From Methylobacter sp. (GTDB lineage Bacteria; Pseudomonadota; Gammaproteobacteria; Methylococcales; Methylomonadaceae): a DNA stretch of 46,252 nt. A program made the translations under genes and the position numbers. The notes beneath the pieces are model-generated. The model was not told the origin of the DNA and made no database searches. It worked only from the letters and a program-made list of their open reading frames with translations. Where the stretch lies: assembly GCA_030653175.1 (NCBI GenBank), contig JAURZV010000017.1, positions 1 to 46,252 on the forward strand, given 5' to 3'. Every line of letters starts with the position of its first letter. The first letter of the stretch is position 1. Positions 9,886 to 45,971 of this stretch are shown piece by piece.

Positions 9886-11898
9886 TTATTTTTCTTCAGG
9901 CGTAGTGCTGGTTAGCATGACAATTCGGTTTCTCCCTTCATTTTTTGCTCGATACATAGCTTGATCGGCGATTTCGATCATTTGGGTGTAACTTGTATGC
10001 TGCCGACTATACATGGCCACACCGATACTTACGGTCAGTGCATGATTGTGAAACTTGTGGCTCATAATTTTACCGCAGCGCTCAATTTCAGATCTGATGC
10101 GTTCGGCATAATGATAGGCGCCGGCTTCATCAGTATTTTGCAGAACAAATATAAACTCTTCACCTCCATAGCGGCCAATAAAGTCTCCGGGGCGGGTCAA
10201 GCTACGCAGAATATCGGCAACAGTCCTTAAAACACTGTCCCCCGCCAGGTGTCCACAGGTATCGTTAAACAGTTTGAACATGTCTATATCGACAAAGCCG
10301 GCGGCAACATTGGCCAGTTTGGACTCATCCCCTTGAAAAATATCAGTCAGGAAACGGTTGATCATGCGTTTATTGAAAAGTTGCGTTAAAGGATCAAGCT
10401 GCGCGCGTTTTTTCTCCATGTCATATTGTTTTGCATTAAACAGGGCAATACCCAGTTCATGTGCAATAGGAGCAATTTCCGATGGTAATTGTTCATGCAG
10501 TGGTTTTTCTGATATCGAATTATCGGCATAAAGCACACCGACGAGACGGTTATGGCGTAACACAGGAATAATGATAAATTCAGACACTTTCAGTTGTTGA
10601 AGTATTTTATCGTTGCCCTTTATTTTATCGTTGATGATGACTGCTTTTTTTTCACGAAAACATTTTAATAACGACCCGGAAAGAGTACTGATATTTATTT
10701 CAAAAGGTTGCAGCTTAATCGGTAACAGCGGTTGTGGCCGCCAGTGAGATGCAGTAAGACAGCGGCGTTTAGGATCTATCATTAGCATAATGACCCGATC
10801 GAAAGCAAAATCGCGCTGTATTGCGTCCAGTGTCCAGGGCAGAAACTCATCGGGATCCAGGCTATGATGAGGCGCGATTAAACTGGATGAAATTGTACGG
10901 CTGGATTTGTTATCAGCGGGCAAAGGGTTGTCTACGCTTAGTTGACTCAGGTTAATAGTCGTTTTTATTACGGTCGCCCGTAGCTTGGCCAGACTGGGGA
11001 ACTGAATGTTATAGAACTGCCGGGTATTTTGGATGTCCTGATCGACCTGTTGCAGCAGATCTTCAAGATCCAGCTGGTCCGTAGCAATGGTTTCCAGAAC
11101 AGCGCGCTGCAACATAGGATGGCTGTCGTGGGTGGCTGAACTAATGCCCTGCATCCAGGCAATGTAGTTTGCAAATGAAACGATAGCGGTTTCCGTTTTA
11201 AATTCAGCGTACGGCGATGCTTCAGTCGGCTGCTTATGATGATGTGCGACGATTGCCGTGATTGATGCCGGTAATTGCCATTCCAAACAAAAGACATGAC
11301 CCATTTCGGAATGCGTTATTCCAAAAAAATTGCGTTCTTCTTCTATTGTTGAATGTTTGTTATTGCCAAGGGAAGAAATGAAATCACTGTAGGTCATACG
11401 TCCGTATGTTTCCAGGACCACTTTGCCAATATCGTGCAGAAGTCCTCCGGTATAAAGCATATCCGGATCCGGATGCTTGAGCGCGACGGCAATTCTTCTG
11501 CTTAATGTTGCGACATACAGGCAATGCTGCCAGAAAAACAAGAAGTCAAATAGCTGCTGTCGGTTATTTTTTATCAGTTTGTCATAAAGCAGCAGGTTTA
11601 GAGCAAGCTGACGCACGGTAGAAAATCCCAACATGCTAACTGAATGTTTAATGGAGGTTATTTTATTAGGCAAGGCATACGCAGCAGAATTAACGTTCTT
11701 CAGGATTGTTGCCGCCAGGGTTGGTTCTGTTTCTATGATTCGGGATAAGTCTTCGATTTTGGCGCTGTCATCGCTGGCCAGGTTTAATAGTTTGATGGCA
11801 ACAGGGGGCACGAGTTGAAGATGCCTGATTTCATCCTTCAGAATTAAGCGGGCTGCTTTTTTTATTGTTTCGGTATTGTCCCCGTTTTCGTTAGCCAT
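9886..11898 (-). CDS. HDOD-GAF-GGDEF protein (probable diguanylate cyclase)
   Basis: About 670 residues. An HDOD domain comes first (LQLVPPVAIKLLNLAS, then the SIKHSVSMLGFSTVRQLAL core and LLHDIGKVV), then a GAF-like domain (residues about 350-500, ending in LVGVLYADNS), then a C-terminal GGDEF domain with an intact GGEEF active site. An RPGD motif five residues before GGEEF is an RxxD inhibitory site, so the enzyme is probably a product-inhibited diguanylate cyclase making c-di-GMP in the cytoplasm. Start: ATG 11898 with GGGGAG about 9 nt upstream; the open frame extends to 11985 but without family resemblance. It lies next to the chemoreceptor on the same strand, 126 nt apart. Confidence 0.88.
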   Translation of the reverse strand: MANENGDNTETIKKAARLILKDEIRHLQLVPPVAIKLLNLASDDSAKIEDLSRIIETEPTLAATILKNVNSAAYALPNKITSIKHSVSMLGFSTVRQLALNLLLYDKLIKNNRQQLFDFLFFWQHCLYVATLSRRIAVALKHPDPDMLYTGGLLHDIGKVVLETYGRMTYSDFISSLGNNKHSTIEEERNFFGITHSEMGHVFCLEWQLPASITAIVAHHHKQPTEASPYAEFKTETAIVSFANYIAWMQGISSATHDSHPMLQRAVLETIATDQLDLEDLLQQVDQDIQNTRQFYNIQFPSLAKLRATVIKTTINLSQLSVDNPLPADNKSSRTISSSLIAPHHSLDPDEFLPWTLDAIQRDFAFDRVIMLMIDPKRRCLTASHWRPQPLLPIKLQPFEINISTLSGSLLKCFREKKAVIINDKIKGNDKILQQLKVSEFIIIPVLRHNRLVGVLYADNSISEKPLHEQLPSEIAPIAHELGIALFNAKQYDMEKKRAQLDPLTQLFNKRMINRFLTDIFQGDESKLANVAAGFVDIDMFKLFNDTCGHLAGDSVLRTVADILRSLTRPGDFIGRYGGEEFIFVLQNTDEAGAYHYAERIRSEIERCGKIMSHKFHNHALTVSIGVAMYSRQHTSYTQMIEIADQAMYRAKNEGRNRIVMLTSTTPEEK

Positions 11899-12100
11899 TG
11901 CGTCCACTCCCCACTCCTTAGCCAGAATTCGATGACTTATACTATCGACAAAACATAATAATTTCTTGGAAATAAATGCGGGCAAATCACAGAATCATTA
12001 TGTTTTTGTTGATAGGGCAATATGTATAGGAAAAGAAAAGGCCTGAAATTTGTCGATTTTACGGGATTATTATCAGCTGATGTTACGCAGTAATTCTAAA

Positions 12101-12490
12101 AATTCACCACGAAGGTACGAAGAACACGAAGTTTTACAACTATTCAACCCTTTCCTCGTTGAGTAACTGCCCACACCACACGCTCGTGATGCCTGACCGA
12201 AATCGAAAAGCTTCCGCTCCTCGGCAACTGCTTCTGCAATATCTGCATAACCCACATGGACGTGGGGAATGCAGATATTGCAGGAGCAAATATCTGTCCA
12301 TGTAGGCACAGTCGATATTAAACGGCCAAAGCAAGCTTTGGACTCCAAAAAAACAAGGATGTTGGAGTTCAAAGCTTGCTTTGTAATTCTAAAGATCACG
12401 TTTTTGTATCGAGAGCACAGGAACGCGTACCGGCAAGGGTGAGCGGTTACTTTTTTCTTCGTGCTCTTCGTGGCCTTCGTGGTAAAAATT
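12101..12490. repeat. Composite repeat element with inverted ends and two internal hairpins
   Basis: The ends (12101-12131 and 12457-12490) are imperfect inverted copies built on CCACGAAGG and GAACACGAAG / GAGCACGAAG. Inside are two strong inverted repeats: 12234-12248 with 12269-12283 (CTGCAATATCTGCAT), enclosing CCCACATGGACGTGGG; and 12327-12348 with 12362-12383 (21 of 22 positions match, CAAAGCAAGCTTTG...). The 540-nt stretch 11986-12522 holds no gene that I can support. Confidence 0.7.
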
Positions 12491-37300: not shown

Positions 37301-37948
37301 ATGCAACTCGTTCCTGCATTATTACCCGGCCTGATTCAGGCAATAGATCACGCAATCGAGACAAATGCCGAGGAAGTGACGGCTCTGGATCAAGCTATCG
37401 GCGACGGCGATCATGTGACTAATCTGCAACGCGGTATTAAGGCGCTGATGGCTCAAAGCGATGAATTGGCGACGCTTGATTGGGCGGCGGCCTGGCAGAA
37501 AATCGGTATGACCTTGATGACGGCGGTGGGGGGTGCATCAGGTTCTTTATACGGTACGTTGTTCGTTGCAATGAGCAAAGCGGCTCGCGACCGGCCTTTG
37601 GATTTGCAGGCTTTTGCCGAGATTTTCACCAGCGGCGTGGGCGCGGTAAAGCAGCGGGGCAAGGCAGATGCAGGCGAGAAAACCATGCTGGATGTGCTGA
37701 TTCCGGTCGCGGCAAGCTTGCGGCAGGCGGCAGCGGATTCGGTTGCGTTACCTGTAGCATTGGAAAATGTCACGCGGACAGCCATTGCGGGTATGGAGTC
37801 TACCCGGGATATGCTGGCGACTAAAGGGCGCGCTTCTTTTCTGGAGGAGCGCAGCCGGGGGCATATCGATGCGGGGGCTAAAACCAGTCAGCTAATGATT
37901 TGTGCGCTGGTCGATGTACTGGCGAAGCATTTAACAGCCCCAGCGTAA
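37301..37948 (+). CDS. dhaL: Dihydroxyacetone kinase subunit DhaL
   Basis: 215 residues, the ADP-binding subunit. The three Mg-binding Asp are in LDQAIGDGDH; GGASGSLYGTLF is the nucleotide loop, and GEKTMLDVLIP follows. AGGAGG precedes the ATG at ideal distance. With DhaK it phosphorylates dihydroxyacetone; in the PTS-type system the phosphate comes from DhaM, which is not in the window. Its 3' end overlaps the convergent dhaK by 18 nt, an unusual arrangement. Confidence 0.93.
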   Translation: MQLVPALLPGLIQAIDHAIETNAEEVTALDQAIGDGDHVTNLQRGIKALMAQSDELATLDWAAAWQKIGMTLMTAVGGASGSLYGTLFVAMSKAARDRPLDLQAFAEIFTSGVGAVKQRGKADAGEKTMLDVLIPVAASLRQAAADSVALPVALENVTRTAIAGMESTRDMLATKGRASFLEERSRGHIDAGAKTSQLMICALVDVLAKHLTAPA

Positions 37949-38920
37949 GGCCGCGGTATGGACGGGCGCATCCCACAGGCGGAGCAGTTCTTCATCAAGC
38001 AAACTTAGGGTAATCGAGCAGCCCGCCATATCGAGTGAGGTGGTGTAGTTGCCGACCAGAGAGCGGCAGATGTTAACGCCGCGTTTTTCCCAGAACCGGG
38101 ATGCCAGCTCATAAATAAGATGCAGTTCCATTAAAGGCGTCGCTCCGAAGCCGTTTATATGTAATAAAGCCGATTGGCCTTTTTGCGGCTTCAGATCGTC
38201 ATCAATAATGCCGGACAGGTAGTCGACAATTTCGGTGGCGCTGCTCATGGCTATGCGCTCGCGCCCTCGCTCGCCATGAATGCCCACGCCCATTTCGATT
38301 TCGTTCTCGCCAATGTCGAAAGTGGGCTTGCCCAGAGCGGGTACCGTGCAACTGCTTAATGCCACGCCCATGGACGCAGTGGCAAGGTTGACTCGATCGC
38401 CTAATACCTTGCAAGTTGCCAAATCTGCGCCTGACTCTGCCGCCGCGCCGACGATTTTTTCCACAATCAGGGTGCCTGCAACGCCGCGTCGCCCGGTGCT
38501 GTGGGTTTTGGGAAAGGAAACATCATCGCTGACCAGGATGGTTTCGTGCGGACAATCAAGCATTTCAGCGGCGATTTCGAAGTTCATCACATCGCCTGCA
38601 TAGTTCTTGACGATGAATAAAACTCCTCCGCTATTTTCCACGGCTTGTGCCGCAGCCAGCATTTGATCGGGAGTAGGGGAGGTGAATACTTGGCCCGGAC
38701 AGGCGGCATCCAGCATGCCTGAACCGACAAAGCCCGTATGCAAAGGTTCATGGCCTGAGCCGCCGCCGGAAATTAGCGCAACTTTGCCGGGTGTGGTGGG
38801 CTTTATGCGTCTGATGAAGTGAGGCTGGGCGTTGAGTTGAATTATATCTGCATGGGCTTTGGCAAAGCCCAGCAGGCTTTCGTCAAGCAGATTATCAATG
38901 CTATTGATGAATTTTTTCAT
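37931..38920 (-). CDS. dhaK: Dihydroxyacetone kinase subunit DhaK
   Basis: 329 residues, substrate-binding subunit. LISGGGSGHEPLHTGFVG carries the first active-site His, IVKNYAGDVMNFEIA the catalytic Asp, and MGVGIHGERG the His that binds dihydroxyacetone covalently. There is no C-terminal ATP domain, so this is the PTS-type DhaK requiring DhaL. It is convergent with dhaL (18-nt overlap) instead of co-oriented. The upstream neighbour on the same strand is a HAD phosphatase, 80 nt away. Confidence 0.93.
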   Translation of the reverse strand: MKKFINSIDNLLDESLLGFAKAHADIIQLNAQPHFIRRIKPTTPGKVALISGGGSGHEPLHTGFVGSGMLDAACPGQVFTSPTPDQMLAAAQAVENSGGVLFIVKNYAGDVMNFEIAAEMLDCPHETILVSDDVSFPKTHSTGRRGVAGTLIVEKIVGAAAESGADLATCKVLGDRVNLATASMGVALSSCTVPALGKPTFDIGENEIEMGVGIHGERGRERIAMSSATEIVDYLSGIIDDDLKPQKGQSALLHINGFGATPLMELHLIYELASRFWEKRGVNICRSLVGNYTTSLDMAGCSITLSLLDEELLRLWDAPVHTAALRWGC

Positions 38921-39000
38921 TGCAGCGGCTCCGGTGAGTGTGGGTTTTTTGATGATAGCGCGGGCAGTGAGCCTGATCTATTAGCTTTAATACGTAGCGG

Positions 39001-39828
39001 TCAGTTTTTCAATGCTTGTGTCACGGCGCGGATGTCCGGCATAACCCAGGTTGGTCGATAGTCTGTCGTTTTGAAATCGTCTTCGGTAGACACGCCCGAT
39101 AAAACCATAAGGCTGCGTATGCCGGTGCGAACTGCGCCAAGAATATCAGTCTCCAATCGATCGCCGATAGCCACTGTTTGGGCCGGATCAACGTCTAGCA
39201 ACGCTAGAGCTTGCTGGTATATGATAGGTTCGGGCTTGCCGATGATGGTTGGCGTTATGCCGGTAGCCGCCTGTAGTGCCGCCAGAATTGCGCCGTTGCC
39301 GTGGGTGAGGCCGCGTTCTGTGGGTAATGTGGTGTCGGCATTGGTGCCAATGAATTGGGCTCCGGCGCGAATATTCAACGTAGCAGTCGCCAACTTGTCC
39401 CATGACAAGGTGCTATCTTTACCGCAAACAACAATGTCAGCTCCCATATTGGGGTTGTCTTTGTCATCATTTAGTTCATACAGCTTGGTCAAGGTAAAGC
39501 CGTGATCAAGAAGCGGCTGTTTAGCGCCATCTTCGCCGATGACGAATACGCGGCTTTCCGCGGGATTGTTATGCTTGCTCAGGTACAATGCGGTTGCCAT
39601 GCTGGAGGTCAGAATTTCATCGCGAGTTACCTGTACGCCCATCTGCGCCAGTTTGATCACATACTGCTCTTGAGTCAGGCTGGCGTTGTTGGTTGCCAGA
39701 ATAAAGCGAATTTGTTGCTCACGTAAGGTTTGAAAAAAGTCTGTCAAGCCGGGCATTGGCTGGTCGCCGTGCCATAAAACGCCATCCATGTCGATGATCA
39801 GTGCGCGTATATTGATAAAAGGTTCCAT
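39001..39828 (-). CDS. HAD-IIA (NagD/PNPPase-like) sugar phosphatase
   Basis: 275 residues. Motif I LIIDMDGVLWHGD (nucleophile Asp), motif II LATNNAS, a C2a cap, motif III Lys in IGKPEPIIYQQAL and motif IV AIGDRLETDILGA. The family removes phosphate from small sugar or glycerol phosphates. Being just upstream of dhaK and on the same strand, it could act on triose or glycerol phosphates; the substrate is not fixed by sequence. Confidence 0.87.
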   Translation of the reverse strand: MEPFINIRALIIDMDGVLWHGDQPMPGLTDFFQTLREQQIRFILATNNASLTQEQYVIKLAQMGVQVTRDEILTSSMATALYLSKHNNPAESRVFVIGEDGAKQPLLDHGFTLTKLYELNDDKDNPNMGADIVVCGKDSTLSWDKLATATLNIRAGAQFIGTNADTTLPTERGLTHGNGAILAALQAATGITPTIIGKPEPIIYQQALALLDVDPAQTVAIGDRLETDILGAVRTGIRSLMVLSGVSTEDDFKTTDYRPTWVMPDIRAVTQALKN

Positions 39829-40726: not shown

Positions 40727-41368
40727 ATGGCAAAACCATTAATACAAATGGCATTAGATTCATTGGATTTCGACCAAACAGTAGGCCTTGCTACCTTAGT
40801 AGCTCCTTACGTTGATATATTTGAAATCGGAACCCCATGCATCAAATATAATGGACTTAACTTGGTTAAAGAATTAAGAGCAAGATTTCCAGAGAAACTA
40901 CTGTTAGTAGATCTTAAAACAATGGACGCAGGCGAATACGAAGCAACACCTTTTTATGCAGCAGGCGCTGATATTTGTACAGTTTTAGGCGTATCCGGCC
41001 TTGCAACTTGTGCAGGTGTTATCAAAGCGGCAAATGCATACGGCGCAGAAGCTCAAATCGATCTGATTAATGTTGAAGATAAAGTCGCCTGTGCAAGAGC
41101 TACTGCTGAAGCCGGTGCTCATATCATGGGTATTCATACAGGTCTTGATGCACAAGCAGCAGGTCATACTCCTTTTGCTGATTTGAATGATATCGCAAGA
41201 TTGGGCTTAAACGTCAGGATTTCTGTTGCCGGTGGTATTAAACCGTCAACTGTACAAGATGTGGTTCGCGCAGGTGCAAACATCATCGTGGTTGGTGCAG
41301 CAATCTATGGCGCTGCCTCACCTGCTGATGCAGCGCGTGAAATTCGCGAATTGGTTGACGCGGTATAA
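40727..41368 (+). CDS. hps: 3-hexulose-6-phosphate synthase
   Basis: 213 residues. Condenses formaldehyde with ribulose 5-phosphate, the fixing step of the RuMP cycle, in the cytoplasm. OMP-decarboxylase fold: QMALDSLDFDQTVGLA start, VDLKTMDAGEYEA with the Asp-Lys-x-x-Asp metal and catalytic set, GADICTVLGVSG, and a phosphate loop in RISVAGGIKPST and IIVVGAAIYGA. GGAGC stands 9 nt before the ATG. The codons look A/T-ending and uniform, as in a strongly expressed gene. Confidence 0.96.
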   Translation: MAKPLIQMALDSLDFDQTVGLATLVAPYVDIFEIGTPCIKYNGLNLVKELRARFPEKLLLVDLKTMDAGEYEATPFYAAGADICTVLGVSGLATCAGVIKAANAYGAEAQIDLINVEDKVACARATAEAGAHIMGIHTGLDAQAAGHTPFADLNDIARLGLNVRISVAGGIKPSTVQDVVRAGANIIVVGAAIYGAASPADAAREIRELVDAV

Positions 41369-41370
41369 TT

Positions 41371-41904
41371 ATGCATCAGCAACTTATCATAGAAAAGATT
41401 TCAGGTGTTCTTGAAGCTACAGATGATACGTATGATGTAAAGTTGACCCAATTGCTTGATAGCGCCAAACGTATATTTATCGCGGGCGCGGGACGTTCCA
41501 AGCTTGTTGGCAATTTTTTTGCAATGAGGTTGGTTCACGGCGGTTACGATGTAAGTGTCGTGGGTGAAATTGTGACGCCGAGCATTAAAAGCGGTGACTT
41601 ATTGGTCATTATTTCCGGATCAGGAGAGACTGAGCAATTAATAGCATTCACTAAAAATGCAAAAAAAATAGGTGCTAACATTGTCTTGATCTCTGCGAAA
41701 GGCAGTTCAACCATTGGCGATCTGGCAGATGCAGTATTCCAAATAGGTAGCCCGGAACAGTATGGTAAGGTTCTAGGGATGCCCATGGGGACTGTGTTTG
41801 AACTATCTACTTTGTTATTTTTGGAAGCAACCATTTCTCATATTATCCATGAAAAAGGAATTCCCGAAGAAGTGATGAGAGAAAGGCACGCTAATTTAGA
41901 ATAG
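41371..41904 (+). CDS. phi: 6-phospho-3-hexuloisomerase
   Basis: 177-residue SIS-domain isomerase that converts hexulose 6-phosphate to fructose 6-phosphate. IFIAGAGRSKLVGNFFAMRL, VISGSGETEQLIAFTKNAKK and GMPMGTVFELSTLLFLEA match the family. It starts 2 nt after the hps stop, so the two enzymes are made together; coupling helps keep formaldehyde low. A hairpin follows before tkt. Confidence 0.95.
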   Translation: MHQQLIIEKISGVLEATDDTYDVKLTQLLDSAKRIFIAGAGRSKLVGNFFAMRLVHGGYDVSVVGEIVTPSIKSGDLLVIISGSGETEQLIAFTKNAKKIGANIVLISAKGSSTIGDLADAVFQIGSPEQYGKVLGMPMGTVFELSTLLFLEATISHIIHEKGIPEEVMRERHANLE

Positions 41905-42042: not shown

Positions 42043-44028
42043 ATGACTTCGCGTCGAGAATTAGCGAACGCCATACGCGCTTTGAGCATGGATGCCGTGC
42101 AGAAAGCAAACTCTGGGCATCCAGGCGCACCTATGGGCATGGCGGACATTGCCGAGGTTTTATGGAATGATCACCTGCGCCATAATCCGTCCAATCCGAA
42201 ATGGTCAGATCGTGACCGCTTTGTTCTTTCCAATGGTCACGGTTCAATGCTGATTTATTCACTATTGCATTTGAGTGGCTATGATTTGCCCATGAGCGAA
42301 TTGGCTTCTTTCCGTCAACTACATTCAAAATGTGCGGGGCATCCTGAATACGGTTATGCACCAGGCGTTGAAACAACGACCGGACCGTTAGGGCAAGGTC
42401 TTGCCAATGGTGTAGGTTTTGCAATGGCTGAAAAGCTGCTTGCTGGCCAATTCAACCGTCCAGGTCATAAAATCGTTGATCACCATACCTATGTATTCAT
42501 GGGCGATGGCTGTTTGATGGAAGGTATTTCTCATGAAGCCTGTTCATTAGCGGGTACTTGGGGTTTAGGCGGCTTAATCGCTTTCTGGGATGATAACGGT
42601 ATTTCTATCGATGGACATATTGAAGGCTGGTACACGGATGATACAGCAAAACGTTTTGAAGCTTACGGTTGGCATGTTCTGTCAGTAGACGGACATAATC
42701 CTGAAGAGATTAATAAGGCAATTGTCATGGCTAAAGCGATGACAGATATGCCTTCATTAATATGCTGCAAAACAACCATTGGTTTTGGATCGCCAAACAA
42801 AGCAGGCACTCATGAATGTCATGGTGCGGCTTTAGGTCAGCCTGAAATTAATTTAACTAAAGCGGCTTTAGGCTGGGACCACGAAGCGTTTATTATCCCA
42901 GAAAATGTTTATGCAGGCTGGGATGCTAAAGCAAAAGGCGCAAGAGCCGAAGCGGCATGGGATACTAAATTCGCAGCCTACGAGGCAGAGTATCCGGAAT
43001 TAGCAGCAGAATTCAAACGTCGTATGGCGGGTGATCTACCGGCTAATTGGCAAGCAGCGACTGACGCATTGATTGCTGAAACCAACGCAAAAGCGGAAAA
43101 TCTTGCCACACGTCAATCTTCACAAAAAGTAATTGGCGGATTAGCTCCCACATTACCTGAATTTTTAGGTGGTTCTGCGGACTTAACAGGTTCTAACTTA
43201 ACCAGTTGCAGCAGCTTCAAACATGTCAGCGGTAAAGAGATGGGTAATTACATCTCCTACGGTGTGCGTGAGTTTGGCATGTACGCTATTATGAACGGTA
43301 TGGCGTTACATGGTGGTTTATTGCCTTTCGGCGGAACATTCCACATGTTCTCTGATTATGCGAAAAGTGCTTTGCGTATGGCAGCGTTAATGAAAATTCG
43401 CACTATTGCTGTTTTAACTCATGACTCTATTGGTCAAGGGGAAGACGGTCCAACGCATCAGCCGATTGAGAACACTTCTGCTATGCGTTACATTCCGAAT
43501 ATGGATGTTTGGCGACCTGCCGATGCCACAGAAACAGCGGTTTCCTGGGTAATGGCAATTGAACGTATGACAGGGCCTACAAGCTTAGTGTTAAGCCGTC
43601 AAGGTTTGCCTTTCATAGTGCGTACAGATGAACAAATCGCAGCTATCCGTAAAGGGGCGTACGTTGTTTCTGAAGCAGCAGGCAATGCCCAAGTTATCCT
43701 CATTGCAACCGGTTCAGAAGTTGATTTAGCAATAAAATCACAAGCAGCCTTAGCAGAAAAAGGTATTCAAGCGCGTGTTGTTTCAATGCCGTCAACAAAT
43801 GTATTTGACCGTCAAGACCAGACTTATAAAGACAGCGTATTAACACCAGGTGTAAAACGTGTTGCGATTGAGGCAGGTATTACTGATTTTTGGCGTAAAT
43901 ATGTTGGTTTGGAAGGCGCAGTTGTCGGTATTGATACTTTCGGCGAATCTGCGCCTGGCGGCATACTGATGAAACACTTCGGCTTTACTGTTGAAAACGT
44001 TGTCAAAAACGTAGAAGCGGTACTTTAA
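42043..44028 (+). CDS. tkt: Transketolase
   Basis: 661 residues. TPP enzyme that regenerates ribulose 5-phosphate acceptor from fructose 6-phosphate and triose phosphate in the RuMP cycle. [51 protein letters not shown] and [10 protein letters not shown] form the TPP site; [16 protein letters not shown] lies in the pyrimidine domain. AAGGAGAAGAAT precedes the ATG. It follows hps-phi by 138 nt. Confidence 0.97.
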
Positions 44029-44171: not shown

Positions 44172-44843
44172 GTGAAAATAAATAATTTGACGAATGGTTT
44201 AGTTGCTACGCTGTTATTGGCCAGTCCCATAGTAGGGGCAGAAACAGAATATCCGGCAGCGGACTTCAAGCCAAAAGTAATTTATCAAGATATTGACAGC
44301 AGCAAGCCTGCGCCGGCACCGGCCAAACAGGCCAAGTCTGTTGAGTCGGCAGAGTCTGATTCAAAATATCCAGCGGCAAACTTTGAGCCAAAAGTTCTAT
44401 ACAAGGACGCTGACTATAAGCCAAGTAAGTTTGCCGGGACATCATCAACGGCTGAGCAGGCTACAGCAGGTGACACAGAGATAAGCGCAACGGTAAAAGT
44501 CGAAGAAGAATCAATGATGAGTTACTTGTTGGGATTGGCTGTTTTTGCTGTGGCTGGATATATCTTTTTAGGTAAGCGCGAGTCAAAAGCTAAAGTTAGC
44601 AAACCTTCAGTTTATTCCGGCCATGTTAGTGGGCTTTCCGGAGTCGCTCGATATCTGAGAAAGCATAATATGGCTGCTGCGACTGGTGTTGCAAGATATT
44701 TGGAAAGTCGGGTTGTGTCTGAAAAAGAAACAGCTGCGGCGAGTGGAGTTGAAAAATACCTTGAAAAACAGGCTAGATCTGCAAAAGAAACAGCAGCTCA
44801 AGCAGGAACTGGAGTTGAAAAGTACATGCGCAACCGGGGGTGA
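44172..44843 (+). CDS. Membrane-anchored protein with periplasmic YPAA repeats and four cytoplasmic GVxKYL repeats
   Basis: Unrecognised. 223 residues from GTG 44172 (AGAGGGGG upstream). Parts: signal peptide (1-23, LVATLLLASPIVGA); two copies of YPAADFKPKVIYQD-type sequence (27-42 and 66-80) with a Pro/Ala/Lys linker; an acidic stretch; one membrane span (about 118-134, YLLGLAVFAVAGYIFLG); a basic stop-transfer segment (KRESKAKVSK); then repeats SGVARYL (156), TGVARYL (171), SGVEKYL (191) and TGVEKYM (213). With a cleaved signal the repeats face the cytoplasm. The next gene, 3 nt on, encodes 17 more repeats. The two proteins surely work together; anchoring a cytoplasmic assembly is my inference. 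Confidence 0.85.
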   Translation: MKINNLTNGLVATLLLASPIVGAETEYPAADFKPKVIYQDIDSSKPAPAPAKQAKSVESAESDSKYPAANFEPKVLYKDADYKPSKFAGTSSTAEQATAGDTEISATVKVEEESMMSYLLGLAVFAVAGYIFLGKRESKAKVSKPSVYSGHVSGLSGVARYLRKHNMAAATGVARYLESRVVSEKETAAASGVEKYLEKQARSAKETAAQAGTGVEKYMRNRG

Positions 44844-44846
44844 TAA

Positions 44847-45971
44847 GTGGATCAAAATTACTTGATCGATTTAGTGTCTGGATTTTTTGGTTTCAAAAGA
44901 GCAGTTGAAACACGAACCAGTCCTCGCGCATATGTTAGAGGTCCTGGTGAGCTTACTGGAGTTGCCAGGTATTTGAAAAGCCAAGAAGTTGAGCCGGTTT
45001 TAAGCGGAGTTGAGAGATATCTGAAAAATCTGGAAGAGCTGTCGGCAAGTAATGAAGTTGCTGATTTCTTGGAAAGTCAGGAAGAGATATCTACAGCGGG
45101 TGAAGTTGTTGATCTCTTAGAAAAACACGAAGAAGTAGTATCAGTGAGTAGTGTTGCCAAGTACTTGGAGAAACTGGATCAGTTTCCTGTAAGCAGTGTT
45201 GCCAAGTATATGGCAAGACAGGCTATACTCGCAAAAAAAGCACCGAAAATAAGCGGTGTTGCTAAGTACATGACCAAGCATGCTGTCGTTGCAAAAAAAG
45301 CGCCCGTAGTCAGTAGCGTTGCCAAGTATGTGGAAAATCAAGCGAAGTCACCTGTTATAAGCAGTGTTTCTAAGTATTTAATAAAGCAATCCATATCCGC
45401 CAGGAATACTGCAGCAGCAACCGGAGTTGCTAAATATCTTGAAGACGAATCTATCGCCGAGAGAAAAGCTGCTGCTGCAGCTATAGTTGCCAGATACTTG
45501 GAAGAACAACGTATGTTTGCAAAAGAGCAAGAAAAAGAAAAAGAAAAAGAAGAGCGGTTGGCAATGGAAAAGGCGAAGGCAAAAGCAAAGGAAAGGGAGA
45601 CCGCGGCGGCCGCGGCAACTGGAGTGGCTAGATATTTGGAAGAGCAGGCAATTTTGTCGAAAGAAAAGCCACCGGTAAGCGGTGTTGCCAAGTATGTGGC
45701 AAAACAAATTTTGTCTAGCAAGGAAGCTCCTATTTTAAGTGGGGTTGCAAAGTATGTAGCGAGACAAACAATAAACGTAAAAGAGGCACCGATTGTGAGT
45801 GGAGTCGCAAAGTATATGGAAAGAGAAGCGATGGCAGCAAAAACAATGCCCAAAATAAGTGGAGTTGCGAAGTATATGGAAAAGCAATCTGTATTGCCGA
45901 GGGCAAGTGGTGTTTCTAAGTACGTGACAAGGCAAGCTATTTCTGCAAGAGAAAATCCAGAAAAAGTATGA
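44847..45971 (+). CDS. Cytoplasmic protein of 17 tandem GVxKYL repeats
   Basis: Unrecognised. 374 residues from GTG 44847, with GGGGG about 9 nt upstream. After a hydrophobic N-tip (YLIDLVSGFFGF) come repeats with core S/T-G-V-A-K/R-Y-L/M/V-x-x-Q at residues 37, 53, 69, 85, 101, 116, 136, 156, 172, 192, 212, 258, 278, 298, 318, 338 and 354. The first five step by 16 residues, most later ones by 20. Copies at 69 and 85 have drifted (NEVADFL, GEVVDLL). A highly charged helix (about 222-252, KEQEKEKEKEERLAMEKAKA) splits the array. No signal peptide or catalytic motif. Many identical weak binding units suggest a scaffold or linker. Partner unknown; the RuMP enzymes next door are the first to test. 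Confidence 0.85.
   Translation: MDQNYLIDLVSGFFGFKRAVETRTSPRAYVRGPGELTGVARYLKSQEVEPVLSGVERYLKNLEELSASNEVADFLESQEEISTAGEVVDLLEKHEEVVSVSSVAKYLEKLDQFPVSSVAKYMARQAILAKKAPKISGVAKYMTKHAVVAKKAPVVSSVAKYVENQAKSPVISSVSKYLIKQSISARNTAAATGVAKYLEDESIAERKAAAAAIVARYLEEQRMFAKEQEKEKEKEERLAMEKAKAKAKERETAAAAATGVARYLEEQAILSKEKPPVSGVAKYVAKQILSSKEAPILSGVAKYVARQTINVKEAPIVSGVAKYMEREAMAAKTMPKISGVAKYMEKQSVLPRASGVSKYVTRQAISARENPEKV

Follow-up and report, generated by a model that had tools for sequence, protein, structure and literature searches.

Type I methanotrophs fix the carbon of methane via formaldehyde, a toxin produced on the outer side of the inner membrane and consumed in the cell. In a genome of Methylobacter sp. 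(GCA_030653175.1), the RuMP genes hps, phi and tkt are followed by two open reading frames whose products, here called REP1 and REP2, contain many copies of a short motif. What do two repeat proteins do beside the genes that fix formaldehyde? We analyzed the whole contig that carries them (JAURZV010000017.1), a stretch of 46,252 nucleotides referred to below as the window, together with related genomes at the level of the family, order, class and phylum. The initial annotation of this DNA had described two adjacent genes starting with GTG directly downstream of hps-phi-tkt, which is confirmed by the coordinates of the open reading frames (Table 1). The contig, and with it the window, ends 281 bases 3' of REP2, so that tal, the gene following REP2 elsewhere, is out of view. 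At the opposite end of the window from REP1 and REP2, a gene at 1007-2164 clusters by similarity with the fructose-bisphosphate aldolase found after tal in other genera.

Table 1. Features of the RuMP locus and of its repeat proteins in the window.
Feature	Position	Strand	Basis or remark
hps, hexulose-6-phosphate synthase (HPS), proposed client	40727..41368	+	Pfam OMPdecase/HUMPS; closest solved chains are HPS
HPS codons 58 (Leu), 108 (Glu) and 164 (Arg), candidate docking residues	40898..41218 (outer limits)	+	row comparison
phi, phospho-3-hexuloisomerase (PHI)	41371..41904	+	SIS domain; TIGR03127 above cut-off
tkt, transketolase	42043..44028	+	66-69% identity to a transketolase recognized by Pfam and to relatives of it
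REP1, membrane-anchored repeat protein, 223 aa, GTG start	44172..44843	+	profile matches across own family
REP1 signal peptide MKINNLTNGLVATLLLASPIVGA	44172..44240	+	sequence; putative cleavage site
YP motif 1, YPAADFKPKVIYQD, presumably periplasmic	44250..44291	+	columns mostly invariant in alignment A1
YP motif 2, YPAANFEPKVLYKD, presumably periplasmic	44367..44408	+	conserved columns in alignment A1
REP1 membrane helix, then basic residues (approximate limits)	44520..44576	+	sequence and hydropathy
Four GVx[KR]Y[LM] repeats of REP1, presumably on the cytoplasmic side	44637..44840	+	motif count
REP2, 17-repeat protein, 374 aa, GTG start	44847..45971	+	3 bases 3' of REP1
Hydrophobic/basic N-terminal segment of REP2, putative membrane foot	44847..44900	+	hydropathy; putative
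REP2 repeat array, 17 copies	44955..45968	+	spacing mostly 15, 16 or 20 residues
K/E-rich linker in REP2	45516..45602	+	within the region of the Pfam U1snRNP70_N match

We counted the repeats with two motifs and compared the counts with 5000 shuffles of each protein. The strict motif, GVx[KR]Y[LMVI], occurs four times in REP1 and ten times in REP2 (shuffle means of 0.0024 and 0.0018, maximum of 1), and has no match in the six frames of the window outside 44172-45971. A looser motif, [TS][GS]Vx[KR]Y[LVMI]xxQ with degenerate copies allowed, which was chosen after the sequence had been seen, gives four and 17 copies (shuffle means of 0.05 and 0.14, maxima of 2 and 3). The 17 copies of REP2 include the degenerate EVADFL and EVVDLL and one further copy, IVARYL. 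Hence, the 4 and 17 copies reported initially are right if degenerate ones count.

To describe the repeat beyond this genome, we surveyed by script 78 sources, i.e., the window and 77 loci, some of them from closely related or identical genomes, and obtained 639 repeats from 102 distinct proteins. The search pattern accepted V or I, Y or F, and one of K, R and Q as the fourth residue, and left the residue before G unconstrained. V rather than I was found in all 639 repeats and Y rather than F in 638; 630 have K or R as the fourth residue, 639 of 639 have T or S before G, and Q is the commonest residue eight positions after G (348 repeats). The linkers between repeats are variable, and so is the copy number. 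The resulting consensus of around ten residues, [TS]GVAKYLxKQ, would be consistent with a helix capped by T/S in which V, Y, L and Q share one face. Relative to four Methylobacter relatives, the dN/dS of REP1 and REP2 is 0.16-0.30, against 0.02-0.09 for HPS.

The two proteins differ in their N-terminal parts. REP1 has a signal peptide, two copies of YPxxDFxPKVxY, a membrane helix followed by basic residues, and then its repeats; hydropathy profiles place a hydrophobic stretch within the first 45 residues in 54/54 proteins sorted as REP1-like. This layout suggests an N-out/C-in topology. REP2 had been described as soluble and almost all repeat. The repeats stand, but at its N-terminus, MDQNYLIDLVSGFFGFKR, a moderately hydrophobic part gives way to a basic one, and in several genera the corresponding segment has a strong hydrophobic character, so REP2 is perhaps not plainly soluble.

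Neither protein could be assigned to an accepted family by Pfam or NCBIfam searches, in line with the initial annotation, which had recognized none. The Pfam family U1snRNP70_N (PF12220) matches REP2 at 30.7 bits against a cut-off of 23, only over residues 181-249 and model positions 25-79 of 92, around a K/E-rich linker. REP1 scores 10.4 and one repeat protein of g12 is over the cut-off with 37.4 bits. We judge this to be a match of composition and do not regard REP2 as a member. The Pfam family ATP_synth_reg (PF14960) gives 31.8 for the g12 repeat protein (cut-off of 25) and 20.6, below the cut-off, for a repeat protein of family f4, a group presented below, and does not list REP1 or REP2; with around 20 of the 50 model positions matching, we assigned no membership there either. 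In NCBIfam, REP1 has no match and REP2 has three, all far below the curated cut-off, and neither matches the CsoS2 family. We found no description of REP1 or REP2 in the literature searched, including the accessible parts of PMC5802761 and PMC7750189. The duplication of RuMP genes in Methylococcus is described in PMC517821 and PMC8527097, whose available text names no repeat protein.

How widespread are these proteins? A profile of REP1 matches 149 of the 151 genomes of the family, in 29/29 genera, and all 127 genomes with a completeness of 90% or more and a contamination of 5% or less. The two genomes without a REP1 match are also devoid of a phi match, among the matches listed. In the order, 169 of 201 genomes match at an E-value of 0.1; among those listed, 13 genomes of family f176 have no match, and 12 further genomes are without one. 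In the class sample, the profile matches 5 of 274 genomes, and all five are among the six genomes, of 369, that exceed the cut-off of the phi family. The sixth of these (G609) has repeats too. In G599, the phi match is below the cut-off and repeats were not found. In the phylum sample, a repeat profile matches two of 398 genomes at an E-value of 0.01: the genome of the window and G906, whose match (E-value of 0.008, in an open stretch of 45 residues) was taken as chance. Within the genome of the window, searches with the REP1 profile (E-value of 0.01) and the REP2 protein (E-value of 10) returned REP1 and REP2, one small secreted protein with YP motifs, and one weak hit at 28% identity, and nothing else. 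In the samples searched, the outcome that the initial annotation had named as refuting, homologues mostly in non-methylotrophs or repeats matching a known domain, did not turn up.

Some genomes have the RuMP genes and no repeats. Four genomes of family f2 are without repeats and all four have phi; in family f175, seven genomes are without repeats, and phi is present in 4/4 of those searched for it. RuMP fixation can therefore run without the repeat proteins. The f175 proteins that matched the REP1 profile and were examined have the signal, the YP and membrane part, and a basic tail in place of the repeats. We excluded genome G437 from the f175 count, since its repeat hits are on a contig (L202, contig C1 of G437, 11.2 kb) that we take for contamination, apparently by a relative in f173. 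Besides the repeats, this contig carries tkt, tal and fba, and the identities obtained for the latter two equal those of a locus of family f173 (L134).

We then asked whether the repeat genes are linked to the RuMP genes. For each genome of the family, we compared the best listed place of REP1 with the places of phi among the matches listed, excluding 13 genomes that have a REP1 match at an unlisted place. Among the matches listed, REP1 is found in 136 genomes and phi in 118 of these. The two are on one contig in 102 genomes, and always 2170-2442 bp apart. They are on different contigs in the other 16 genomes (again among the matches listed), where at least 10 of the REP1 copies are no more than 0.5 kb from the end of their contig. 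We also mapped 46 stretches (39 fetched ones, six loci and the window), several of which are cut by contig ends. The prevailing order across genera is hps-phi-tkt-REP1, often REP2, then tal and often fba; in several genera there is no REP2 beside REP1. For three genes upstream of hps in the window (37301-39828), among which a dihydroxyacetone-kinase-like and a phosphatase-like gene were recognized by eye, relatives are present in 17-19 of the 46 stretches mapped.

Variants of this order are found in several groups. In f2, REP1 precedes hps-phi in 6/7 repeat-bearing loci, and in the seventh (G431) the fuller REP1 is around 560 kb away from hps. In the latter genome, a short anchored protein is encoded between tkt and tal (L133, about 11840-12190); it has two repeats but lacks a YP motif. 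In G010 and G002, blocks of hps-phi-tkt-REP2 occur in tandem; one stretch of G010 (L085, 199-13942) has three hps-phi-tkt blocks in tandem, and the two REP2 copies between them encode identical proteins. A second RuMP locus was sampled in seven g12 genomes (L188-L194), picked because each had a YP hit. All seven stretches hold genes for a small secreted YP protein and for a repeat protein of 15-18 copies, and the four stretches that reach far enough have hps-tkt upstream and lack phi. A relative of a DUF2782 protein is found downstream in five of these seven loci.

Family f4, from the same class and another order, has a different small protein with 4-7 repeats, encoded within the RuMP cluster in the order hps-REP-tal-hps-phi in 3/3 genomes. 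The repeats are linked to RuMP genes in gammaproteobacterial RuMP methylotrophs, and REP1 and REP2 form a part of the RuMP cluster that is conserved widely.

Is this association with formaldehyde fixation or with methane oxidation? In the three f4 genomes, phi and hps are present and the copper monooxygenase was not found. Conversely, the phi-negative genomes of the order (seven of f176, two of f177 and three of f172, the latter 85-92% complete) have no repeats, except for two scores near an E-value of 0.09. In these three families phi was not found, with just weak hits at 24-26% identity in three f176 genomes, and the copper monooxygenase is present in 5/7, 2/2 and 2/3 of these genomes, respectively. 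Since repeats occur in f4 without the monooxygenase and are absent from nine phi-negative members of the order that have it, the repeats follow RuMP fixation, and neither methane oxidation nor its membranes.

These proteins have the features expected of a scaffold: many copies of one short motif, variable linkers, selection, and a genetic linkage to the RuMP cluster, in which more than one gene is a candidate client. We lean, with some reservation, towards REP1 and REP2 being a membrane-tethered multivalent scaffold of the RuMP pathway that putatively docks HPS. Each motif of around ten residues would dock a RuMP enzyme. HPS is the likeliest candidate, and the motif would then bind to the side of the HPS barrel that points away from the active site (Leu58/Glu108/Arg164). 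REP1 would keep its repeats just below the inner membrane, and REP2 would supply many more docking sites and link the enzyme oligomers to one another in a cluster at the membrane. Formaldehyde produced by the periplasmic methanol dehydrogenase would then meet concentrated HPS on entering the cell. A membrane-tethered scaffold clustering RuMP enzymes or organizing intracytoplasmic membranes had been proposed initially; the anatomy (an anchor and many short motifs with variable linkers) and the RuMP linkage favor the former part, and the latter is not supported.

Why HPS? We compared distinct sequences from repeat-bearing and repeat-lacking genomes (58 vs 7 for HPS, 59 vs 8 for PHI), and called group-specific the positions conserved in at least 93% of the repeat-bearing and at most 35% of the repeat-lacking rows. 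The comparison covered HPS and PHI; the repeat-lacking loci hold no TAL or TKT. Ten positions of HPS are group-specific, and one of PHI. Among the former, Leu58, Glu108 and Arg164 are each present in 52/52 repeat-bearing Methylococcales and in 0/7 repeat-lacking genomes. From the barrel fold, we take strands 3, 5 and 7 to begin at these residues, on the side facing away from the active site, but the residues might equally form a contact within the barrel. Three solved relatives of HPS have G, Q and K at position 108 in alignments. In f4, the hps copy adjoining the repeat gene has L/E/R in 3/3 genomes and the other copy, next to phi, has K/E/K in 3/3, so that Glu108 alone is no marker of a client. 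The hps of four g12 second loci has L/E/R. The same signature is carried by HPS-PHI fusions encoded outside the cluster, in all 18 usable sequences of the 20 fetched (L163 and L170 were dropped because wrong open reading frames had been taken). Both forms being recruited would account for this, but so would plain common descent. In the HPS tree, the repeat-lacking rows are in two places, two of them on very long branches. As a tree with all repeat-lacking HPS in one clade is not rejected by the AU test (p = 0.102), the signature may reflect one evolutionary event, and independent losses of it are not supported. Overall, these comparisons point with moderate confidence to HPS among the RuMP enzymes.

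A scaffold of the same kind might have another client: PHI, transketolase, transaldolase, or several of them. We consider this unlikely, though it is the strongest competitor of a scaffold docking HPS. Its appeal lies in the gene order, as tkt and tal are the usual direct neighbors of REP1 and REP2 in the family, tal follows the f4 repeat gene, hps, phi and tkt were copied jointly with REP2 in G010 and G002, and the second locus of g12 has tkt as well as hps. However, phi is missing from that same g12 locus, there is no tkt beside the f4 repeat gene, and two f2 loci (L130 and L139) consist of REP1-hps-phi with no tkt within the mapped stretch. The single group-specific position of PHI, against ten in HPS, also argues for HPS.

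The periplasmic part of REP1 raises a further, rather doubtful possibility, that of a two-sided coupler. The YPxxDFxPKVxY motifs would hold the methanol dehydrogenase, or a complex associated with it, in the periplasm, while the cytoplasmic repeats, with REP2, would hold HPS, and formaldehyde would be relayed through one membrane patch. The YP module is found alone as a small secreted protein in the second hps loci and with another tail in f175, which would suit a separate periplasmic partner. A search for such a partner among the f175 neighbors of the YP protein, which sits near mutS, gave none. The f175 proteins concerned (L195-L199) combine the YP part and membrane helix with a basic tail (such as KTKRSRRR), have no repeats, and are encoded near mutS. 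The genome of the window encodes a secreted protein of 80 residues that has two YPAANFxPKVxY motifs but neither membrane helix nor repeats (L187, 7968-8207, contig C91). It adjoins ABC transporter and flagellar genes, which is uninformative on its partner.

Could the motif instead dock a non-metabolic hub, such as a membrane or polar site, common to the RuMP-linked repeat proteins and a chemosensory kinase? The idea comes from f4, where ChpA-type kinases of all three genomes carry the motif in their linkers, with five copies in G310 (L101, 5683-11787), three in G609 (L214) and six in G152 (L213); in this family the motif thus extends beyond the RuMP proteins. The Hpt, CheW, ATPase and receiver domains were identified by Pfam in the G310 kinase, and those of G609 and G152 were assigned by similarity. 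Yet, in the genome of the window the matches are limited to REP1, REP2, the small secreted YP protein and the weak 28% hit, and the linkage to the RuMP cluster is strict wherever it could be scored, which makes a hub of this sort improbable. Much less probable still is a role of REP1 and REP2 in shaping or organizing intracytoplasmic membranes. A membrane anchor, presumably cytoplasmic repeats and a family of methanotrophs would suit it, but the repeats are present in f4 (3/3) without the copper monooxygenase, absent from the nine phi-negative genomes that have it, and linked to phi in the family, and the monooxygenase of the genome of the window is on another contig. Finally, that the repeats are functionless low-complexity by-products is hardly credible: variable copy number and linkers, and the genera without REP2 beside REP1, would allow it, but chance or low complexity as their origin is rejected on the basis of the shuffles, the residue constancy (V in 639/639, Y in 638/639 and T/S before G in 639/639 repeats) and a dN/dS of 0.16-0.30, and the profile match in 149/151 genomes of the family also speaks against it.

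A scaffold docking HPS would resemble several known systems. EPYC1 and other pyrenoid linkers of Rubisco are disordered proteins whose spaced short motifs gather one carbon-fixing enzyme by multivalent docking (see also PMC11570498); for REP1 and REP2, docking is proposed. Unlike EPYC1, they are bacterial, have another motif and would have HPS instead of Rubisco as client, and REP1 is fixed in the membrane with a presumably periplasmic side. CsoS2 of alpha-carboxysomes is, like them, a bacterial repeat linker whose gene lies beside that of the enzyme it gathers (see also PMC10614612); in contrast, REP1 has a signal peptide and a membrane helix, and the identified neighbors are RuMP genes. Engineered Mdh-Hps-Phi assemblies serve the purpose proposed here, that of joining formaldehyde and HPS, and such fusions are reported in a review to improve methanol conversion (PMC8879981); those are artificial, whereas REP1 and REP2 would be natural. 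The HPS-PHI fusion enzyme of methanotrophs, found in many of the same genomes, is another natural joining of RuMP enzymes (accessible text of PMC8527097). It is two enzymes in one, unlike REP1 and REP2, and is encoded elsewhere in the genomes sampled. By analogy, the kind of mechanism would already be known from Rubisco linkers, and a two-sided coupling, if shown, would be a new category.

If HPS is docked under the membrane, this would help explain how these bacteria safely handle their flux of formaldehyde. The HPS of Methylococcus capsulatus was reportedly found to be particulate in old studies, and docking, if true, would give a reason for it. The RuMP cycle would then gain a scaffold of a kind known for Rubisco, and engineered methylotrophy a natural part.
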